9,141 nt of DNA from Nitrososphaera sp. (GTDB lineage: Archaea > Thermoproteota > Nitrososphaeria > Nitrososphaerales > Nitrososphaeraceae). Under the pieces are notes generated by a model. The model saw nothing but the letters and a program-made list of their open reading frames with translations, made no database searches and had not been told where the DNA came from. Position numbers and translations under genes: made by a program. The first letter of the stretch is position 1, and each line of letters begins with the position of its first letter. The stretch lies in assembly GCA_022545875.1 (NCBI GenBank), contig JAKEIF010000267.1:1-9141 (forward strand), written 5' to 3'. Positions 1 to 9,141 of this stretch are shown piece after piece.

Positions 1-390
1 AGCGGGCGCTTCGTGGTTGCCTCGCATCAGAATGACAGATTCAGGATATGTGCACTTGAGCTGACAAACAGTGTGCAGTACTCCAACTGAATTGCTGCCT
101 CTATCAATATAATCGCCGAGGAATACTATTTTGTTTTTCTCATCCGCCACAAACGTCTCATACTCGACTTCTCGAAGCATCTGGTCCAGGCATGCGAAGT
201 CGCCATGGATATCGCTGATAATGACAAGATTTTTTAATTCCGAGATTTCAGATAGCCCTCCGGATACTTTCCCGCCGGCAATTGAGGCTTCTTTCCTTTG
301 CTTTGCCATTGCTGCTATTGCACAATCAATAGCTGAGGCAAATTCTGGGACGGTGGGATTTGACCACTTTTGCAAAGGATCTGACACCAT
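1..390 (-). CDS. PPP-family Ser/Thr protein phosphatase, partial (C-terminus outside window)
   Basis: Read on the minus strand, an open frame runs from ATG at 390 to the window edge without a stop, giving 130 residues. It carries the first three metal-binding motifs of the PPP (PP1/PP2A/PP2B-like) metallophosphatases: SDIHGD (D60, H62), GDYIDRG (D93) and RGNHE (N125, H126). These bind the two catalytic metals and the phosphate, so the protein should dephosphorylate phospho-Ser/Thr proteins in the cytosol; some relatives hydrolyse dinucleotide polyphosphates instead. The first 50 residues are a Ser/Ala-rich segment ahead of the catalytic core. The start is chosen because an in-frame TAA lies at 412-414 and a TATA-like box sits about 24 nt upstream of this ATG; a TTG at 405 is the only alternative. 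There is no Shine-Dalgarno site, which fits a leaderless transcript. It is divergent from the ATP-grasp gene. The family is clear; the substrate is unknown. Confidence 0.88.
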   Translation of the reverse strand, partial: MVSDPLQKWSNPTVPEFASAIDCAIAAMAKQRKEASIAGGKVSGGLSEISELKNLVIISDIHGDFACLDQMLREVEYETFVADEKNKIVFLGDYIDRGSNSVGVLHTVCQLKCTYPESVILMRGNHEAPA

Positions 391-410
391 TTTATCCGTG
401 GACAAGGCGA

Positions 411-1561: not shown

Positions 1562-3217
1562 CTATATGTAGCGGGAAAAGAGCCGGCTGCCCGCTTCTCT
1601 TATCGTCGGTATCATTACGATAGAAGATGCGCAGGCAGAGACTATCGCTCCAGCCAGATATGCAAGTACGAGATTTTCAAAACCGTAGCTTGCCGCAAAG
1701 ATCCCGCCGACAACTACGATCGCAGCTGATGCGAAGGCTATGATAGCAAGTTCCTTCGCCCTTCCAAGGAACATCATGTATAGACTATTCGCGCCAAATA
1801 CGGATAGGAATACGCCTCCCGTCGAGGCAAACAGCAAGATCCTCGTACTTGCTTCTGTCCCTCCAAGGGCATCCATTACATTAGGACCAAGTAAATTAAT
1901 CACTACGGCGACAACTGCTGATGCCAGAATCGATGAGAGCAGGATTCTTCGGTAGCTATGCTGCAAGAAAAGATCTATCTTGCGCTTTTCCAAGACTTTC
2001 ATATTGAGGGCCCGGTTATGGACAAGGATGTAGATCGGAGAAGCCATCACATACTGTATGATAATGGCAGGCAGGATGACCATTAACGCGAGATCGGCAC
2101 CGATGTGGTAAACAGAGTTGAAGGATATCGGCAGGACGGTTCCGCCAGTAGTCACGGTCGTAACGGGATTAAAGACCCAAGAAAGAATGCGGTCTGAAAA
2201 GAGGAGGACAAAGTAAGCGGTGCCATAGACAAAGTATGGTATGCACTCCCATAGCTGTATTCCGAATCGAGATGCAATGGTATTATCATTTACGGTTAGT
2301 GGACTGTAAAAGTGAGGCGCGCCTCGGGCCACGATCGAAGTTGAACTCTGGCCCATTATCTTGTAGTGATGGTAGACCGCAAAGCCCGATAGAACAGCAA
2401 ACGCAGCTCCCAAGGCAGCAAAGTATCTAGTAGTCATGTCTGGGACTTCAGATGCCATTAGAAAGAAAACTAGGATAAGTGCCGCAAATGCTCCGGCATA
2501 GGCAACAGTAAGGTGAACCAACTTCTTTAGTACATACATGATTACAAAGCTCAGCCTGTGCAAAGCCACTGTCACGGCGCTTATGGCAGCGACTGTAGCC
2601 AGCTCAAATGAGATGCCTGCTCTGTCAGAAAGGAGATAGATGCCTGCGACGGCGGCGAGCAGAATTACGCCTGCCAGTGCATAGTTTCTCTTGATGCTCC
2701 TCTTTACCTCGCCGATGTTTGTCTGGGAATAGTAAAATGAAAAAAGCCGTTGAAAGTTCTGTAGAAGCCCCTCCGTTATGGCCAATCCGAGAAAAACTCC
2801 GCCGAGAAACATGGTCGTGATATCGGCAGGAAGTCCCCAGGCCATCCACAATGAAACTCCTGTCACAAAGAGTACAACCAGCGCCCCAAGCCACGGAAAA
2901 ACCATGCTGAGGCCTTCCGCGATACGCCTCCCCCTGCCTGGTACCGGAACTGCGATAGATGTCTCCTTATCCTTGTCGTCGTATGCATCGACGAAATCAT
3001 AGACATACTCAGCCAGATGATGCATGCTGCTAAACCCATTCCTCCTGACCAAATTTTCGTCGTAGCCCAAGATTTCCAGAAATACCAAGACATCGGCCAT
3101 ATTGTTCACGCTCTGCTGGATCTCTGCTATTGATCTTGCCGTCTTGGCGCCAAATTGTCTTGCTTCCCTAGAAAGTGCAGGGGTTAGAGAGGACAAATTA
3201 GGCCGTCTCTCCTGCAC
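1562..3217 (-). CDS. pelG: PelG-like 12-TM polysaccharide flippase/channel (MOP superfamily)
   Basis: A 551-residue membrane protein. I count about 12 hydrophobic segments, roughly at residues 107-128, 134-155, 179-196, 202-222, 228-254, 264-282, 321-347, 370-398, 424-443, 458-484, 488-509 and 514-536, which fits the MOP (flippase) superfamily. The segment IPYFVYGTAYFVLLFSDRIL (326-345) resembles the PYLxYGxxYFxxxFxDRxxxW signature I associate with PelG, the inner-membrane protein that works with the glycosyltransferase PelF in Pel exopolysaccharide export. It is longer than bacterial PelG (about 456 aa) because of a soluble N-terminal region of about 105 residues. The start is GTG at 3217, overlapping the epimerase stop by 20 bases; no convincing Shine-Dalgarno site precedes it, so a later start is possible. 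It is the last gene of the operon, after pelF-like and the epimerase, which supports export of an amino-sugar polymer. Another polysaccharide flippase of the same superfamily is the main alternative. Confidence 0.72.
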   Translation of the reverse strand: MQERRPNLSSLTPALSREARQFGAKTARSIAEIQQSVNNMADVLVFLEILGYDENLVRRNGFSSMHHLAEYVYDFVDAYDDKDKETSIAVPVPGRGRRIAEGLSMVFPWLGALVVLFVTGVSLWMAWGLPADITTMFLGGVFLGLAITEGLLQNFQRLFSFYYSQTNIGEVKRSIKRNYALAGVILLAAVAGIYLLSDRAGISFELATVAAISAVTVALHRLSFVIMYVLKKLVHLTVAYAGAFAALILVFFLMASEVPDMTTRYFAALGAAFAVLSGFAVYHHYKIMGQSSTSIVARGAPHFYSPLTVNDNTIASRFGIQLWECIPYFVYGTAYFVLLFSDRILSWVFNPVTTVTTGGTVLPISFNSVYHIGADLALMVILPAIIIQYVMASPIYILVHNRALNMKVLEKRKIDLFLQHSYRRILLSSILASAVVAVVINLLGPNVMDALGGTEASTRILLFASTGGVFLSVFGANSLYMMFLGRAKELAIIAFASAAIVVVGGIFAASYGFENLVLAYLAGAIVSACASSIVMIPTIREAGSRLFSRYI

Positions 3218-4172
3218 TTATTCGGGCGACTTGGGGCTTATTCAGCGATTGAATGACCTCAACTAGACCTTGTTGCATGACTATCTTGGGGCTATACCCC
3301 AGTGACGCCTTTATCCTGTCGATCGACGCAAGTCCGAGTTTCATGTCACCTGCCCTTGCCGGTGCAAAGTTATTCTCCAAGTCTGAGGAGCCGACAAGAT
3401 TCTTTATGATTTTGGACAGCTCCATTATGCTTGTTGCTTTTCCAGATGCCACGTTAAATGACTCACCTACAGCGACTTGCGATTCCATAGCCAGCATATT
3501 TGCTTGCACAATATCTTGGACGTGAACGAAATCCCTGACCTGTTCGCCGTCGCCAAAGATCGTGGGTTTTTCTCCGTCTAGAATCTTGTTTGCAAAAACT
3601 GTGATCACGCCGCTGTAATCGCTGTAGCGCTGGCGTTTCCCATAGACATTGAAGTAGCGAAGGGCAACTGTCTCAAGGCCATAGCTGTGATGATACGCAT
3701 GCAAATAGTCCTCCACAGACAACTTTGATGCTCCGTAAGGTGAATTCGGCCTGCATACCATGTCCTCGACTGCCCTTCCCTCAATTATCCCATAGACCGC
3801 CGCGGATGACGCAAAGACTAGCCTCTTGACTCCGGCCTTTACGCAGTAATTGAGAATGTTGAGAGTCATGTTGACATTGACATCGTGTACGAGGATAGGA
3901 TGGCTTACGGATTTAGGCACGCTTGCAATAGCAGCTTCATGGAATACTATGTCGATGTTGATTCCCCGGAGCAACGAATCAACTTCCCTTGCGTCTCCAA
4001 GGATTGTATGCACTAGACCGCTTTCCTTGTGTTTAGAAAGATTATCCAGCGAGCCCGTGCTCAGGTTGTCAACGATAAACGTTTCAATCCCCCGTGCCAC
4101 CAATTCGTCAACGATGTGGCTTCCGATGAACCCGGCGCCTCCCGTCACGAGAACTTTTGATATATTTCTCAT
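3198..4172 (-). CDS. NAD-dependent UDP-hexose(NAc) 4-epimerase (extended SDR)
   Basis: A 324-residue extended short-chain dehydrogenase of the GalE/WbpP type. It shows the NAD-binding glycine motif TGGAGFIG (10-17), the acidic residue D35 that binds the adenosine ribose, the catalytic S122/S123 region, YxxxK at Y146 and K150, and the substrate-side RYFNVYG (172-178). The length is normal. In the C-terminal RAGDMKLGLASI stretch, G280 aligns by my reading with the gatekeeper that is Ser306 in WbpP and Tyr299 in E. coli GalE. A small residue there lets N-acetylated sugars fit, so UDP-GlcNAc/UDP-GalNAc interconversion is likely (inference from recalled alignments). It starts with ATG in an ATGA overlap with the PelF-like stop, with GGAG eight bases upstream as ribosome-binding site. 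Its place between PelF- and PelG-like genes fits supply of UDP-GalNAc, the role PelX plays for bacterial Pel. A 4,6-dehydratase is less likely because the C-terminal signature is epimerase-like. Confidence 0.88.
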   Translation of the reverse strand: MRNISKVLVTGGAGFIGSHIVDELVARGIETFIVDNLSTGSLDNLSKHKESGLVHTILGDAREVDSLLRGINIDIVFHEAAIASVPKSVSHPILVHDVNVNMTLNILNYCVKAGVKRLVFASSAAVYGIIEGRAVEDMVCRPNSPYGASKLSVEDYLHAYHHSYGLETVALRYFNVYGKRQRYSDYSGVITVFANKILDGEKPTIFGDGEQVRDFVHVQDIVQANMLAMESQVAVGESFNVASGKATSIMELSKIIKNLVGSSDLENNFAPARAGDMKLGLASIDRIKASLGYSPKIVMQQGLVEVIQSLNKPQVARISAGETA

Positions 4173-5656
4173 TTCCTCATCTCCTGGCCTACAGCCAACT
4201 GCAACCCCTTGCGCGAGGAGAGCATCTCGTACTGCTCCGCATACTGCCGAAGCGAACTTTCAAGCGTGAATCGCTCGTGCACTTTACGAAGGGCGAGAGC
4301 ACCCAAATCCTTTCGCAATTTTTCATCGGCCAGCAGTTTAACAATCGCACCAGAGAGCTCCTGCGGATGGCTGCTTCTAACTAGGAGGCCGCATCCATCC
4401 AGTGCCTCCCGAATCCCGCCGACGTCGGTAGCCACGATTCCCTTGCCGCATGCCATAGCCTCAATGATGGCAAACGGAAACCCTTCGGTGATGCTGCTAA
4501 TTACTACGACGTCAGCTGCATTGTACGCAATTTCAGGGTCCTTGACCTTTCCCATGAATCGAATATTGTCTCCCAGCCCGAGTGACTTTACCAAGTTTGT
4601 GCAGCGAAGAGAATAGTCCAGATCTGTTGAAGCGCCATAAATGAGGCATTGGACATCTCGATACGTTCTCTTGACATAGTTTATTGACTGTATAAGGTTC
4701 ACAATGTCTTTGAACACATCAACTCTCCCAATGCAGACGACGGTAGGCCGCGAATCTCTATCCACATCAAGAGGTCTGAACTTATTCGTGTCTACACCGT
4801 TGTAGATCACTCTGATCTTCGATCTTTCGACTCCCAAGCTTTCCTCCCATTTTGCATTTGCATAGCAGACTGGGGCTATGACGTCTGCCATGAAATACAC
4901 GGTGCGGACAACATTCGAGGAAAACATTTTCCAAAAGATATTTGATGGTTCGTCGCGAAGATATGCATTATAGTACAGCAATAGTTCGCGAAAAGCCACC
5001 CCATGTTCTGTTATGAGTATCGGGCAACCATACTCCATCTTCGCAGAAATGGCTACCATTGCAGGCAGCCACGCAAGCGAACAATGGACAATATCCACTT
5101 CAGGCACCCTCAGGGATAGAATCTGCATATTGCGCTGAATTATCTGAAATGCGGTCAGCGCTTCTTTGAGCGTCATCTCGCGATAAAGCGGGTCTTGCTC
5201 AAGAAGTGAAATAAATGTCTTCCAAGATTGAATGTGCTCTAGACATTTCTTTGAGTCATGTTCCCTTAGGAACTTGTGTAATGCGAAAATTATTTCCGCC
5301 AGCTTTTTTGGCTCGCATTCGTTGGAAAAGATTTCTGAGAGGAATTGGCGGAACATTGGCATGAATGCGGTCCGTATTACTCTGTCGTTGGTGCGCCTCA
5401 GCTTGTCTGCTAGATGTTTGCCCTTCTCTTCATAATATTCTTCGTATCTGTTCGATCCAAAGAGCGGGACATCTATGACGTCTGTTACATTTGGCGGTAC
5501 AGAAAACTTGCCGTTGGCATTCGGATTGGACAGAAAGTTGATTATCATAAAATCATAGTCAGTCATGCTGTCAACTAGGACTTTCTCCCACGAGTAGACC
5601 CCGCCAGACATTATGTTGGGGTAGCTATCCCAGTTAACTAGCAATACTTTTTTCAT
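4169..5656 (-). CDS. pelF: PelF-like GT4 glycosyltransferase
   Basis: A 495-residue GT-B glycosyltransferase of family GT4 with features of PelF. The N-terminal domain begins with a beta strand and GGVYSW (18-23), as in the DUF3492 domain of PelF. It also carries ITEHGVAFRELLLYYN (215-230), like the TEHGIYxRE signature of that domain. The C-terminal nucleotide-sugar domain has NGVD (286-289), GRVDVFKD (310-317), YGASTDLDYSLRC (340-352) and the EX7E motif EGFPFAIIE (E391 and E399), expected for a retaining GT4 enzyme. PelF is a cytosolic enzyme that polymerises UDP-GalNAc/GlcNAc and docks on the PelG membrane complex. The ATG at 5656 has GGAGGGAG (minus strand, 5672-5665) eight bases upstream; it overlaps the preceding TPR-like gene by 23 bases and the following epimerase by four. 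A generic GT4 enzyme is the alternative, but the N-terminal motifs favour PelF. The polymer or glycan product is not known. Confidence 0.86.
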   Translation of the reverse strand: MKKVLLVNWDSYPNIMSGGVYSWEKVLVDSMTDYDFMIINFLSNPNANGKFSVPPNVTDVIDVPLFGSNRYEEYYEEKGKHLADKLRRTNDRVIRTAFMPMFRQFLSEIFSNECEPKKLAEIIFALHKFLREHDSKKCLEHIQSWKTFISLLEQDPLYREMTLKEALTAFQIIQRNMQILSLRVPEVDIVHCSLAWLPAMVAISAKMEYGCPILITEHGVAFRELLLYYNAYLRDEPSNIFWKMFSSNVVRTVYFMADVIAPVCYANAKWEESLGVERSKIRVIYNGVDTNKFRPLDVDRDSRPTVVCIGRVDVFKDIVNLIQSINYVKRTYRDVQCLIYGASTDLDYSLRCTNLVKSLGLGDNIRFMGKVKDPEIAYNAADVVVISSITEGFPFAIIEAMACGKGIVATDVGGIREALDGCGLLVRSSHPQELSGAIVKLLADEKLRKDLGALALRKVHERFTLESSLRQYAEQYEMLSSRKGLQLAVGQEMRK

Positions 5657-6269
5657 TTAGTTTGCTCCCTCCACTTGAGTCAATTGACCTCATTACATAG
5701 CCAGGGTCGAATGCGTCGCCACTTTGAACCGATAACTTTCTGTGCGATTCTATGAGCCTGTCTATCTGCTCGGCAAGACCTTGTGGCAGCCGCACTTGTT
5801 TACCGTTTGAGACGAGCAATTCCGCCACAGGCGTTCCCTCTTCTGCTTTAGAAATAGAAGGCCGTGCAAATGGATTTGTCCTGGATGCAAGGGCGAAATA
5901 TCTGCCGCGCACGGCGTCCGCCTCTTTGTAATCTCCGGCAAGAGTGAAATTTTCCGCCGCTTCTTGCATGGACCACATCGCCTCCCTAATCGATTCCGAC
6001 ATCGCAACGTCAGAGTTCTCAATGTAAATCTTGGCAGCCAACGAGTGTAGGGTACGCGCTTGAGCTGTGGCGCCCAATTTCGCCAGACAATTTGCCGCGC
6101 AGGTGCAGCTAAGGGCAGCCCGTACCAGATTTCGGCCCAGGCATTGCGAGGCATCTTCAACGTAGTTGGATGCCGCCGTGACAAAATCACCCTCATCTTC
6201 TGCCTTGACCGCGCTGAACCATAGATTAGACTCGTCTGTAAGTCTCTGTAACCACGTTTTTACCTGCAT
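5634..6269 (-). CDS. TPR/SNAP-like helical repeat protein, first gene of the Pel-like operon
   Basis: I do not recognise a named family. From ATG 6269 the protein has 211 residues. Residues about 14-125 form repeated amphipathic helix pairs rich in Ala, with TPR-like patterns such as AEDEGDFVTAASNYVEDA (23-40), a Cys/Ala-rich helix at 49-64 and FTLAGDYKEADAVRGRYFAL (108-127). The C-terminal 85 residues are polar and probably flexible, with one likely helix near 163-178. There is no signal peptide or membrane segment, so it is probably a cytosolic scaffold. It leads the operon and overlaps the PelF-like gene, which makes a role like the TPR protein PelE possible (inference from context). The frame also contains an ATG at 6329 (231 residues), but a TATA-like TTAAAAATTA lies about 28 nt upstream of ATG 6269 and would fall inside the longer version, so the shorter start is preferred. 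The gene is likely real because of its tight coupling; the function is open. Confidence 0.75.
   Translation of the reverse strand: MQVKTWLQRLTDESNLWFSAVKAEDEGDFVTAASNYVEDASQCLGRNLVRAALSCTCAANCLAKLGATAQARTLHSLAAKIYIENSDVAMSESIREAMWSMQEAAENFTLAGDYKEADAVRGRYFALASRTNPFARPSISKAEEGTPVAELLVSNGKQVRLPQGLAEQIDRLIESHRKLSVQSGDAFDPGYVMRSIDSSGGSKLNEKSIAS
5665..5672 (-). promoter_or_regulatory. Strong Shine-Dalgarno site before the PelF-like gene
   Basis: The minus strand reads GGAGGGAG, eight bases before the ATG at 5656, inside the 3' end of the TPR-like gene. It fixes the PelF-like start and contrasts with the leaderless first genes of this window. Confidence 0.75.
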
Positions 6270-6292
6270 GTTCCATCCAAGCCTTCTATGCG

Positions 6293-6302
6293 TAATTTTT
6301 AA
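6293..6302 (-). promoter_or_regulatory. TATA-like box of the Pel-like operon
   Basis: On the minus strand TTAAAAATTA is centred about 28 nt upstream of ATG 6269. It is the best TATA match in the window and would drive the whole four-gene operon, with transcription starting at or within a few bases of the ATG. It also argues against the longer start at 6329. Confidence 0.6.
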
Positions 6303-6395
6303 GCCAATAGCAATATTGTAAGCTGACATTCATTCGCACACATAGGAATTTCAGGATTCTTATGTTTGCATCAGCTAGAGAAAATTTAGTTCAGC

Positions 6396-6405
6396 AATAA
6401 ATAAA
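6396..6405 (+). promoter_or_regulatory. TATA-like box of the deacetylase/BshC-like operon
   Basis: AATAAATAAA is centred about 25 nt upstream of the GTG at 6426, and no Shine-Dalgarno site precedes that GTG, so a leaderless transcript is likely. Between box and start lies a small inverted repeat, AACTC (6404-6408) and GAGTT (6415-6419) with a six-base gap, which could be an operator but may be chance. Confidence 0.55.
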
Positions 6406-6425
6406 CTCGCTGAAGAGTTGCAATC

Positions 6426-7130
6426 GTGAATATTCTAGCGATCGGAGCTCATCCAGACGACATCGAGCTTGGCTGTGGGGGCTTACTTATCAAGGCGGCA
6501 AGACAGGGCCAGGACGTCTTTATGTATACCCTTACCAGGGGCGCGGCATCCGGCGACCCAGAGCAGAGGACAAACGAGCTTGTACAATCGGCCAAGTTCA
6601 TAGGAGCCAAGGCGCTATGGATAGACAACTTTGAAGATACCAAGCTGAACGCAAGTAACAGCGAGCTAATCAATCACATTGAATTTTTTATCAACAAGGC
6701 GGATCCCGACGTAATAGTGACGCATTCTCTTGGCGATGTTCACCACGATCATCGGGCTGTAGCTTCGTCTACTATTGAAGCGGGCAGATTTATACCGAAC
6801 ATCATGTCGTACGAAATTCCACTTACAAAGGACTTCAAGCCCCAAGTTTTTTACGATATATCCGATGTAGTCGATGACAAGGTAGAGCTTATCAAAATAT
6901 TCTGGTCGCAACAAAGTAAGCTTTACCTGAAGGCGAACGCGATTAAGGGCCTTGCAGAATATAGGGCTCTGCAGAGCAGACTGAACACTTCGATCAACTA
7001 CGTGGAGGCGTTTGAGGTAATGAAGCTCTGCTTTGGCAAAGAATTCAAGCTTTGGAAGGTTCCAAATGATCGCATACCCAAGATCACATCGGCACCGACT
7101 CGGCCCAAGGAGATTATCGAGCTAATTTAA
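6426..7130 (+). CDS. PIG-L/LmbE family zinc-dependent deacetylase, BshB-like
   Basis: A 234-residue protein, the usual length for PIG-L/LmbE deacetylases. The N-terminal AIGAHPDDIELGCGG (6-19 region) gives zinc ligands H9 and D12 and the catalytic base D11. The second motif GDVHHDHRAV (103-112) gives the third zinc ligand, H109. The C-terminal KANAIKGLAEYRALQSRL pattern (169-185) matches the conserved end of the family fold. These enzymes remove the N-acetyl group from GlcNAc-containing molecules, as in GlcNAc-PI, GlcNAc-malate in bacillithiol synthesis (BshB) or mycothiol precursors. The start is GTG at 6426, immediately ahead of the HPDD motif as is normal, with a TATA-like box at the leaderless distance. 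It ends three bases before the earliest possible start of the BshC-like gene, so the two are co-transcribed; this points to an amino-sugar substrate whose freed amine is then acylated. The exact substrate is not determinable. Confidence 0.9.
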   Translation: MNILAIGAHPDDIELGCGGLLIKAARQGQDVFMYTLTRGAASGDPEQRTNELVQSAKFIGAKALWIDNFEDTKLNASNSELINHIEFFINKADPDVIVTHSLGDVHHDHRAVASSTIEAGRFIPNIMSYEIPLTKDFKPQVFYDISDVVDDKVELIKIFWSQQSKLYLKANAIKGLAEYRALQSRLNTSINYVEAFEVMKLCFGKEFKLWKVPNDRIPKITSAPTRPKEIIELI

Positions 7131-7134
7131 GGAG
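7131..7134 (+). promoter_or_regulatory. Ribosome-binding site deciding the BshC-like start
   Basis: GGAG follows the TAA of the deacetylase directly and lies five bases before GTG 7140. It overlaps the GTG at 7134, so that first GTG is an unlikely start. ATG 7149 would have a spacing of 14, which is long. Confidence 0.55.
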
Positions 7135-7139
7135 TGGTC

Positions 7140-8795
7140 GTGCAAAGCATGTCAGGCTCAACTGCAGTAATTAACCAAGCTCCTCAGATAAGGACACTCT
7201 TGTCGGCATTTGACAAGCTAGCCGACCCTTCTGTTTCTGATTTTACTTCGTCTATTCCTGAAAGATTTGAGGAAGCTGCGTTGCATGTATCCTCCCAAAA
7301 TTTGCTAGTCAGCGACTTTGTTCTTCGCAATAGAATGATGATGAAGCCCATGATAGAAAAATTCCATGGCAATGCGGGAACACTCACTGCTTCTGTCCAA
7401 GAGTCCATCCAGCTATTGGACGATCCAACGACCAAGATTGTCGTTTCTACGCATCAGCCCAACCTCTTTGCCTACGGAGGGGTCTTCAAGAAAATTGTCA
7501 TGCTTGAAAACATTAGGAACCTCTCTGCGCCTGTCGGCCATAGCAAGATCATAAACCTATTCTTGATAGTTGATCATGATTTCGTCGACGAAACATGGAT
7601 GCGCGTTGCACAGCTGCCAAGTATCAACCACTCGTCAGGCATCATGGAGCTTCGAGCGCCCATCACCGATTCTAAGAGATGGCTAATGGTCTGCAACGTC
7701 CCACTGCCCAGCAAGGGTCTGGTCAATAATTGGAAGCATCAAGTCAAGTCATGGATCAGAAACTGCTCAGAGTCGCAACCTCAAATAAGAAACAAGTCAA
7801 ATGCGCACTTTGAAGAATTTTGGCAGCAAATAGTTGAAACGTCTTATTCTAGGGCTAGATCGTATTCTGAACTCAATTCATTCATTACCTCGAATCTGGT
7901 GAACCATGCCTGGGGATACAGCACCCTTTTTGTGAGACTTTCAGATTTGGCACAAGTATTTGAGAACGGTTTTACATTTTTGCTATCCAACTTTGGTCTT
8001 TACTCCGACGCATTGCGCGGAATTGAGCAAAAGTTGATGAGCAGAGGCATCGATACTGGGGTGAGCTCCTCGGCTTATCAAAATGCCCCTGTATGGATTC
8101 ATTGCTCATGCGGGAGTAAGGCTTCAGCCAAGCTTTTGAGAGACGAAACGACCGCGAATCTAGCCGGCACGTGTACATCATGCAAGAAATACCTCGAGCT
8201 GAGCTTGGGGAAACAAGACGACCTCGATATCTCTAAAGTTGTCAAAGACCTGAGCCCGCGAGCTATTCCAATTCCCCTTTTGCTTTCAAGGGACTTGGGA
8301 ATTAGTTGCTATGCATCTGGTACTGGAGGCATAGGTTACTTGCTTGACGGCAGCGTAGTGGCCAAAAAGATGTCGCTAAATTTTCCGTATATCGCAATTT
8401 GGAGCTCAAAGGACAAATACCTAGGAATAGGACAGCTTCCAGCCTCATCCGATGAGTATCCCAGGGATGAAGATATCGACAACCAATTGAAAACTTTACA
8501 GAAACGGTCTGAAATTTGCCGTGAAAAGATGGGACCTCTGCTGGCGATCAGGCGCAAATGCATTGCGAAATCAAGCTCCCTCCACGAAGTTCTATCCGAA
8601 ATTTTCTCACTCAAGGAAGAGCAGCGCCACATCCACCAGCAGATCAACTTTCTGTCCAGAGCGCGCAACATCGAAAACCTAGCCCCGTGTTTCATTGATT
8701 ACGTAGCTAACTTTGGCATGAAAGAGACGGAGCGGCTATGGACAGAACACCTTGCCCACGATGGGCGCCTAGCAGCTCCTGTTATTTTCCGGTGA
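7140..8795 (+). CDS. BshC-like (bacillithiol cysteine-adding) ligase with zinc-ribbon insert
   Basis: About 551 residues from GTG 7140, close to bacterial BshC (about 540). Numbering from that start, it matches the BshC layout. KIVVSTHQPNLFAYGGVFKK (99-118) corresponds to the GQQPGLxxGPLYxxYK segment, INLFLIVDHDF (138-148) to the FWxAxEDHDF segment, SPRAIPIPLLLSRDLGISCY (372-391) to the SPNxxLRPxxQDxxLPT segment, and ASGTGGIGYLL (392-402) to the GGPGExxYW segment. A C-terminal helical region (about 447-513) resembles the BshC coiled coil. BshC joins cysteine to the free amine of glucosaminyl-malate; here the co-transcribed deacetylase would make such an amine. An unusual CxC...CxxC cluster (C322, C324, C345, C348) looks like a zinc ribbon inserted before the SPN-like segment; I do not recall it in bacterial BshC. 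Several motif residues differ from bacterial enzymes (STHQPN, GTGGIGYL), so substrate or amino acid may differ. Family confidence is good, function moderate. Confidence 0.8.
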   Translation: MQSMSGSTAVINQAPQIRTLLSAFDKLADPSVSDFTSSIPERFEEAALHVSSQNLLVSDFVLRNRMMMKPMIEKFHGNAGTLTASVQESIQLLDDPTTKIVVSTHQPNLFAYGGVFKKIVMLENIRNLSAPVGHSKIINLFLIVDHDFVDETWMRVAQLPSINHSSGIMELRAPITDSKRWLMVCNVPLPSKGLVNNWKHQVKSWIRNCSESQPQIRNKSNAHFEEFWQQIVETSYSRARSYSELNSFITSNLVNHAWGYSTLFVRLSDLAQVFENGFTFLLSNFGLYSDALRGIEQKLMSRGIDTGVSSSAYQNAPVWIHCSCGSKASAKLLRDETTANLAGTCTSCKKYLELSLGKQDDLDISKVVKDLSPRAIPIPLLLSRDLGISCYASGTGGIGYLLDGSVVAKKMSLNFPYIAIWSSKDKYLGIGQLPASSDEYPRDEDIDNQLKTLQKRSEICREKMGPLLAIRRKCIAKSSSLHEVLSEIFSLKEEQRHIHQQINFLSRARNIENLAPCFIDYVANFGMKETERLWTEHLAHDGRLAAPVIFR

Positions 8796-8880: not shown

Positions 8881-8882
8881 TT
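8861..8882. promoter_or_regulatory. Palindromic cluster, possible operator of the winged-helix gene
   Basis: Two perfect symmetries overlap: AATTCGAATT (8861-8870), a ten-base palindrome, and AATTTC-TGTA-GAAATT (8867-8882), an inverted repeat with six-base arms. They lie directly at the 5' end of the winged-helix coding frame, where an autoregulator would bind. AT-rich palindromes arise by chance, so this is a suggestion. Confidence 0.4.
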
Positions 8883-9141
8883 GCCTTTAAATGCAGCTGG
8901 GTGGAGCAATCGTGGATGGCTAGAGATAATAGAATTCATTTTGGTAATGTGCGAAAATGGGGCCAGAAAAACCCACGTAATGTACAGATGCAATCTCAAC
9001 TCAAAACAGATTAATCAATACCTCGAGTTTCTCCTTGAGAGCGGCATGCTCGAAATGATTCAAGAGCGGCCAACTTCAAAGCGGTTCATGTACAGGACAA
9101 CGGATCTCGGAAAAAAGTTCATTTCTCATTACAAGCAGCTG
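8881..9141 (+). CDS. Archaeal winged-helix transcription regulator, partial (C-terminus outside window)
   Basis: An open frame runs from an in-frame TAG at 8875-8877 to the window end, 87 codons from TTG 8881. It reads as a winged-helix domain of the type abundant in Thaumarchaeota (HTH_45-like). The first helix is NRGWLEIIEFILVMCENGAR (10-29), followed by KTHVMYRCNLNSKQINQYLE (30-49), containing the turn and recognition helix, a third helix FLLESGMLEMI, and a wing RFMYRTTDLGKKF (68-80). It should bind DNA as a local regulator. The start is doubtful: the frame has no ATG or GTG before the first helix, and TTG 8881 is the only ordinary start codon upstream of it. An ATG at 8916 with a TTTAAA box (8886-8891) at leaderless spacing lies in another frame. 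An unusual start or a frameshift near the 5' end are both possible. Its targets are unknown; the adjacent Pel-like and BshC-like operons are candidates. Confidence 0.72.
   Translation, partial: MPLNAAGWSNRGWLEIIEFILVMCENGARKTHVMYRCNLNSKQINQYLEFLLESGMLEMIQERPTSKRFMYRTTDLGKKFISHYKQL

Follow-up and report, generated by a model that had tools for sequence, protein, structure and literature searches.

A PIG-L and BshC-like gene pair beside a Pel-like module

The window analysed here, a 9,141-nucleotide contig (JAKEIF010000267.1) of a draft archaeal genome of Nitrososphaera sp. (1.7 Mb, 72% complete), carries on its forward strand two neighbouring genes that encode a predicted deacetylase of the PIG-L (LmbE-like) family (6426–7130) and a predicted amino acid ligase with a BshC-like fold and an HQPN motif (7134–8795, with a likely start at 7140). 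The initial annotation had taken these for relatives of the last two enzymes of bacillithiol synthesis, which homology confirms, and had noted that BshA was missing and that the substrate might therefore differ. We describe the pair as a known enzyme pair in a new variant with a putative, testable role in glycan modification; the initial interpretation is partly supported. The closest known systems are BshB and BshC of bacillithiol synthesis (Bacillus subtilis 6p2t/6ull and 4wbd), the archaeal bshA-bshB-bshC loci of family f74, class I lysyl-tRNA synthetase (1irx) and the Pel exopolysaccharide system (PelF, PelG).

Upstream of the pair, a 96-base gap (6330–6425), judged from its sequence to be a candidate common promoter region, separates it from divergent genes on the reverse strand. 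These encode a weakly SNAP-like helical-repeat protein (5634–6329; E = 0.16 to PF14938, with relatives in loci L010 and L012 at E = 8.6e-5 and 5.2e-5, below the family cut-off), a PelF-like GT4 glycosyltransferase (4169–5656), a NAD-dependent sugar epimerase/dehydratase (3198–4172; PF01370 217.7 bits; 217.5 bits with the GalE model, under its cut-off of 262.3) and a PelG-like membrane protein, a predicted exporter (1562–3217). Farther out, past the PelG-like gene, the forward strand encodes an ATP-grasp ligase of the PRK12767 type (493–1557; NF009402 293.4 bits, cut-off 218), a third partner that the initial annotation did not list and whose closest solved structure is 2pn1 (76.3 bits).

The divergent genes resemble the Pel system in that the PelF-like protein scores above the NF038011 cut-off (136.5 bits versus 100) and adjoins the epimerase gene; PelG homologs from L012, L010 and L016 reach 31.8, 19.6 and 6.2 bits, respectively, with PF16933 (cut-off 29). 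Unlike in Pel, the window copy of PelG has no Pfam match at E ≤ 10, and no PelA, PelD or PelE was found among the scanned window proteins. To our knowledge, PIG-L and BshC-like genes are foreign to the known pel operons.

The window is bounded by two truncated genes, for a calcineurin-like phosphoesterase at its start (1–405, reverse strand; PF00149 47.4 bits), a homolog of which adjoins the ATP-grasp gene in L010, L012, L040 and L045, and for a winged-helix protein of the Sso10a family at its end (8881–9141, forward strand; PF14947 55.4 bits and NF053610 68.7 bits, cut-off 60, both on 8911–9141).

Properties of the two proteins

The window PIG-L protein scores 89.2 bits with PF02585 (cut-off 28.2), and the metal ligands H9, D11, D12, H106 and H109 are unchanged in all 15 sequences compared. 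It falls short of the BshB equivalog models, with 96 of the required 182.5 bits for TIGR04001 and 44.7 of 195.25 for TIGR04000; however, the former is a weak criterion on its own, as the PIG-L protein of a bacillithiol-type locus from f74, a family in the same phylum that served as a control, also fails it (71.7 of 182.5 bits).

The BshC-like protein had no match in the PDB at E ≤ 1, and a 47-row profile of its family retrieved only four weak matches, none better than E = 0.37 and most of them to coiled coils. As these searches were uninformative, the fold had to be judged from a predicted model, in which the window protein adopts the BshC fold. Its alignment with class I lysyl-tRNA synthetase (1irx) stops at chain residue 318 of 507, and beyond this part the model continues, as in BshC, into a long helical hairpin. 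With the BshC equivalog model TIGR03998 (cut-off 265.8 bits), the window protein had no match at E ≤ 0.01, and relatives from L028 and L057 scored 22.4 and 32.3 bits; this model, too, is weak as a lone criterion, since an f74 BshC also fails it (61 bits).

Sequence comparison places the BshC-like protein and the BshC of BshA-carrying archaea in two different clades. Nine f74 BshC proteins are 16–18% identical to it, and a tree of 51 window-type and nine f74-type sequences resolves two clades with 100/100 support. Residues that distinguish the two clades (window/f74) while being uniform to 90% or more in each include H107/Q, H148/Y, I378/D, I380/R, Y393/H, G399/E and W423/Y. In the window clade, HQP and G399 are present in 51 of 51 sequences and I380 in 46 of 51, while Q, R and E occupy these positions in all nine f74 sequences. 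Bacillus subtilis BshC aligns with GQQ, TR and GPGE, like the f74 proteins, so that relative to it the window clade has HQP for GQQ, I for R and G for the E of GPGE; the alignment scores 14.9 bits over the GPGE stretch and 0.8 bits over the GQQ stretch. H148 is not taken as diagnostic with respect to bacteria, as B. subtilis has EDHD nearby and the alignment register is ambiguous.

The zinc-ribbon cysteines were rejected as a clade marker, since C324, C347 and C350 also occur in f74 BshC, in which a fourth zinc-ribbon-like cysteine is displaced (9/9). A kinship to WbqC-like proteins, suggested by the HQPN motif, was likewise dropped, as it has no Pfam support and no paper on point was found by title. 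The family comprises 845 database proteins at E ≤ 0.001. No bacterial member of the HQPN clade was present among the named matches listed (best 120 of 845 and best 120 of 453, few of them named), so that bacterial members are possible. A plasmid-borne form was rejected, since the protein of the distant genome G331 matched none of 72,556 plasmid records.

BshA search, distribution and gene neighbourhoods

The best score with the BshA model TIGR03999 (cut-off 273.7 bits) in the genome from which the window derives is 90.4 bits, a result that is indecisive alone at 72% completeness. In agreement with the initial annotation, BshA was likewise absent above the cut-off from all 200 genomes of the class (best 163.1 bits) and from all seven genomes of a separate check, complete relatives among them. 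A BshC-like profile matched 16 of these 200 genomes; setting aside G065, in which the match spans only 51 residues (E = 2.2e-4), leaves 15 carriers, every one of them in the family of the window genome. A control search, with a distant archaeal BshC-like protein as query, reached 15 f74 genomes, in 13 of which BshA scored 393–419 bits, indicating that the method detects archaeal BshA where it is present. In 12 f74 stretches, a GT4 gene lies near BshC in 11 and a PIG-L gene near the BshC-fold gene in nine. These sequences suggest that the f74 loci are likely genuine archaeal bacillithiol loci; they share with the window-type loci the proximity of PIG-L to a BshC-fold gene, but differ in having BshA adjacent. 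In L070–L076 and L078–L081, all from f74, BshA stands beside a BshC-type gene, often with PIG-L, and DinB-like open reading frames were noted nearby by eye.

Within the family, the BshC-like gene is patchy, being present in 37 of 70 genomes. The ATP-grasp gene occurs in 33, all of them among these 37 carriers; the four carriers that lack it are 69–87% complete. If the count is restricted to genomes with a completeness of 90% or more and a contamination of 5% or less, 37 remain, of which 22 have both genes and 15 have neither. Fisher's test for the co-occurrence gives 6.7e-16, a value that is overstated because shared ancestry is ignored.

We compared 30 loci containing a relative of the BshC-like gene, labelled Nitrososphaera, Nitrososphaeraceae, Nitrososphaerales, Nitrosocosmicus or Nitrosopolaris, with three labelled Nitrosopumilus or Nitrosopumilales. 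The latter labels (L014, L030, L035) may be misassigned: L030 and L035 cluster with Nitrosocosmicus-labelled loci in the tree of BshC-like proteins, and the gene order of L014 is nearly identical to that of the Nitrosopolaris locus L029. In 23 of the 30 loci, no more than 3 kb separates the BshC-like gene from a PIG-L gene, and in six of the other seven the stretch stops within 1.73 kb downstream of the BshC-like gene. The window-type ATP-grasp gene is present in 26 of the 30.

In type A loci (the window, L010, L011, L012, L016, L040 and L045), PIG-L lies immediately upstream of the BshC-like gene and the Pel-like module is divergent. Type B loci commonly run from an ATP-grasp gene through the genes for a PHP hydrolase and the BshC-like protein to a second ATP-grasp gene (of the window type) and a convergent PIG-L gene, with an NDP-sugar dehydrogenase gene next where the contig extends. 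The complete genome G109 has one type A and one rearranged locus. In the distant genomes G331, G395 and G402, PIG-L abuts or overlaps the BshC-like gene, and two of the three loci carry glycosyltransferase homologs. Across five type A loci, mean identity is 90% for PIG-L and 54% for the adjacent BshC-like protein.

Proposed function and alternatives

The idea that the pair has a substrate other than that of the known pathway gains from the lack of BshA and the separate clade, and of the two options raised initially, gene context favours a glycan over a new thiol. We propose, at a probability of roughly one half, that the PIG-L and BshC-like proteins act in sequence and that their substrate is the precursor of a surface glycan, not GlcNAc-malate. 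We infer the order of the reactions, the substrate, the use of ATP and the cytoplasmic location as follows: PIG-L would deacetylate an N-acetylated sugar, and the BshC-fold protein, with ATP, would join an amino acid (which one is not predicted) to the freed amine. Both steps would be cytoplasmic and would precede export, for which the PelG-like protein is the candidate, and the ATP-grasp enzyme may add a second amide to the attached amino acid or make the attached acyl unit. More tentatively, the pair may belong to an archaeal pathway that needs no tRNA. In it, a BshC-superfamily enzyme with an aminoacyl-tRNA-synthetase fold would charge deacetylated amino sugars with an amino acid and an ATP-grasp ligase would build on this, so that ammonia-oxidizing archaea, Bathyarchaeota and Methanomethylicus would carry aminoacylated or peptidylated glycans on their surface; the bacillithiol-type BshC enzymes would in that case form a single branch of a broader sugar-aminoacylating superfamily.

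Several observations weigh against this proposal. The window protein scores 21.6 bits with PF10079, below the cut-off of 27, which clade relatives from G100, G093, G070 and G395 pass, as does that from G402 together with neighbouring stretches. The split between the two clades connects long branches, as the program warned, and the root is a midpoint; moreover, the cysteines shared with f74 BshC are uninformative on the substrate. The predicted PIG-L model is equally near to BshB and to B. cereus BC1534 (chitobiose deacetylases at about 25), so that the fold leaves a BshB substrate possible. PelF occurs in only seven of the 70 family genomes, all within the 37 carriers, and a Pel-like module is thus not a general partner; L025, which is truncated on the upstream side, has no PIG-L over 8 kb downstream, and the short L056 (6.5 kb) shows no glycosyltransferase, only a DegT-like aminotransferase assigned by eye. 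The ATP-grasp gene is absent from the stretches of L016, L022 and L026 and was not flagged in L055–L057, so that it is dispensable in some loci; L027 stops at the BshC-like gene.

The pair would also be accounted for by a low-molecular-weight thiol that resembles bacillithiol but has an aglycone other than malate: a different glycosyltransferase would make GlcNAc-X, PIG-L would deacetylate it and the BshC-like protein would add cysteine. We consider this unlikely, as the pair is patchy in the family and, in contrast to bacillithiol loci, sits amid polysaccharide-type genes with an ATP-grasp partner for which we know of no counterpart in the bacillithiol pathway. In addition, PMC7554672 reports genes for another thiol, ergothioneine (egtB and egtD), in ammonia-oxidizing archaea. 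It is also doubtful, and somewhat more so, that the BshC-like protein activates an amino acid for, or transfers it to, a target other than an amino sugar, such as a peptide in whose synthesis the ATP-grasp enzyme takes part, while PIG-L cleaves another N-acyl bond: PIG-L is the more constant partner, and distant archaea keep the pair without a flagged ATP-grasp gene. Ordinary bacillithiol made with a BshA too diverged for the curated model is very improbable and was set aside, for although GT4 proteins of carriers score moderately with that model (90.4 bits in the window genome, 139.7 in G093 and 158.8 in G331, with 85.7 for the PelF-like protein of the window), the same model finds BshA in f74, its top match in the complete G109 is a PelF-like gene, and residues common to f74 BshC and Bacillus BshC are altered in the window clade.

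According to the review PMC7278568, bacillithiol is undetected in archaea, and archaeal homologs of BshA and BshC (39 InterPro matches each, mostly Asgard) are read as a hint of it. Our results caution that an archaeal PIG-L and BshC match need not mean bacillithiol. The parts available of PMC11559005, in which Nitrosocosmicus is described as lacking an S-layer and possibly having an amino-sugar glycocalyx, do not mention the pair; nor do those of PMC7278568 and PMC7554672. The main text of PMC12448741, as far as available, lacks the terms PIG-L, deacetylase, Pel, exopolysaccharide, BshC and ATP-grasp, and in the available part of PMC12022489 Pel terms appear only in two passages of the reference list. 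No prior description of the pair was found by title or abstract opening, with subscription papers and preprints outside the scope of this search. If our proposal is correct, BshC chemistry would no longer be confined to small redox thiols but extend to the cell coat, a function would be suggested for the 845-protein family, and testable chemistry would be available for the little-known surface of soil ammonia oxidizers.

Some loci depart from the common arrangements. In L016, the BshC-like gene (8070–9616) and the PelF-like gene (5098–6524) are each split over two open reading frames, by decay or assembly error, and no ATP-grasp reading frame lies between the phosphoesterase and PelG-like genes. 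In L022 (3539–8612), the BshC-like gene is flanked on one side by a gene for a UDP-sulfoquinovose synthase (591 bits, cut-off 575) and on the other by one for a PgaC-like glycosyltransferase, whose 139 bits fall short of the cut-off. L009 (770–2187; G000:C236) contains a second PIG-L gene and, behind it, a PIG-L-like reading frame without the HPDD motif, and this second PIG-L gene adjoins APS-kinase-like and alkaline-phosphatase-like reading frames, both kinds assigned by eye.
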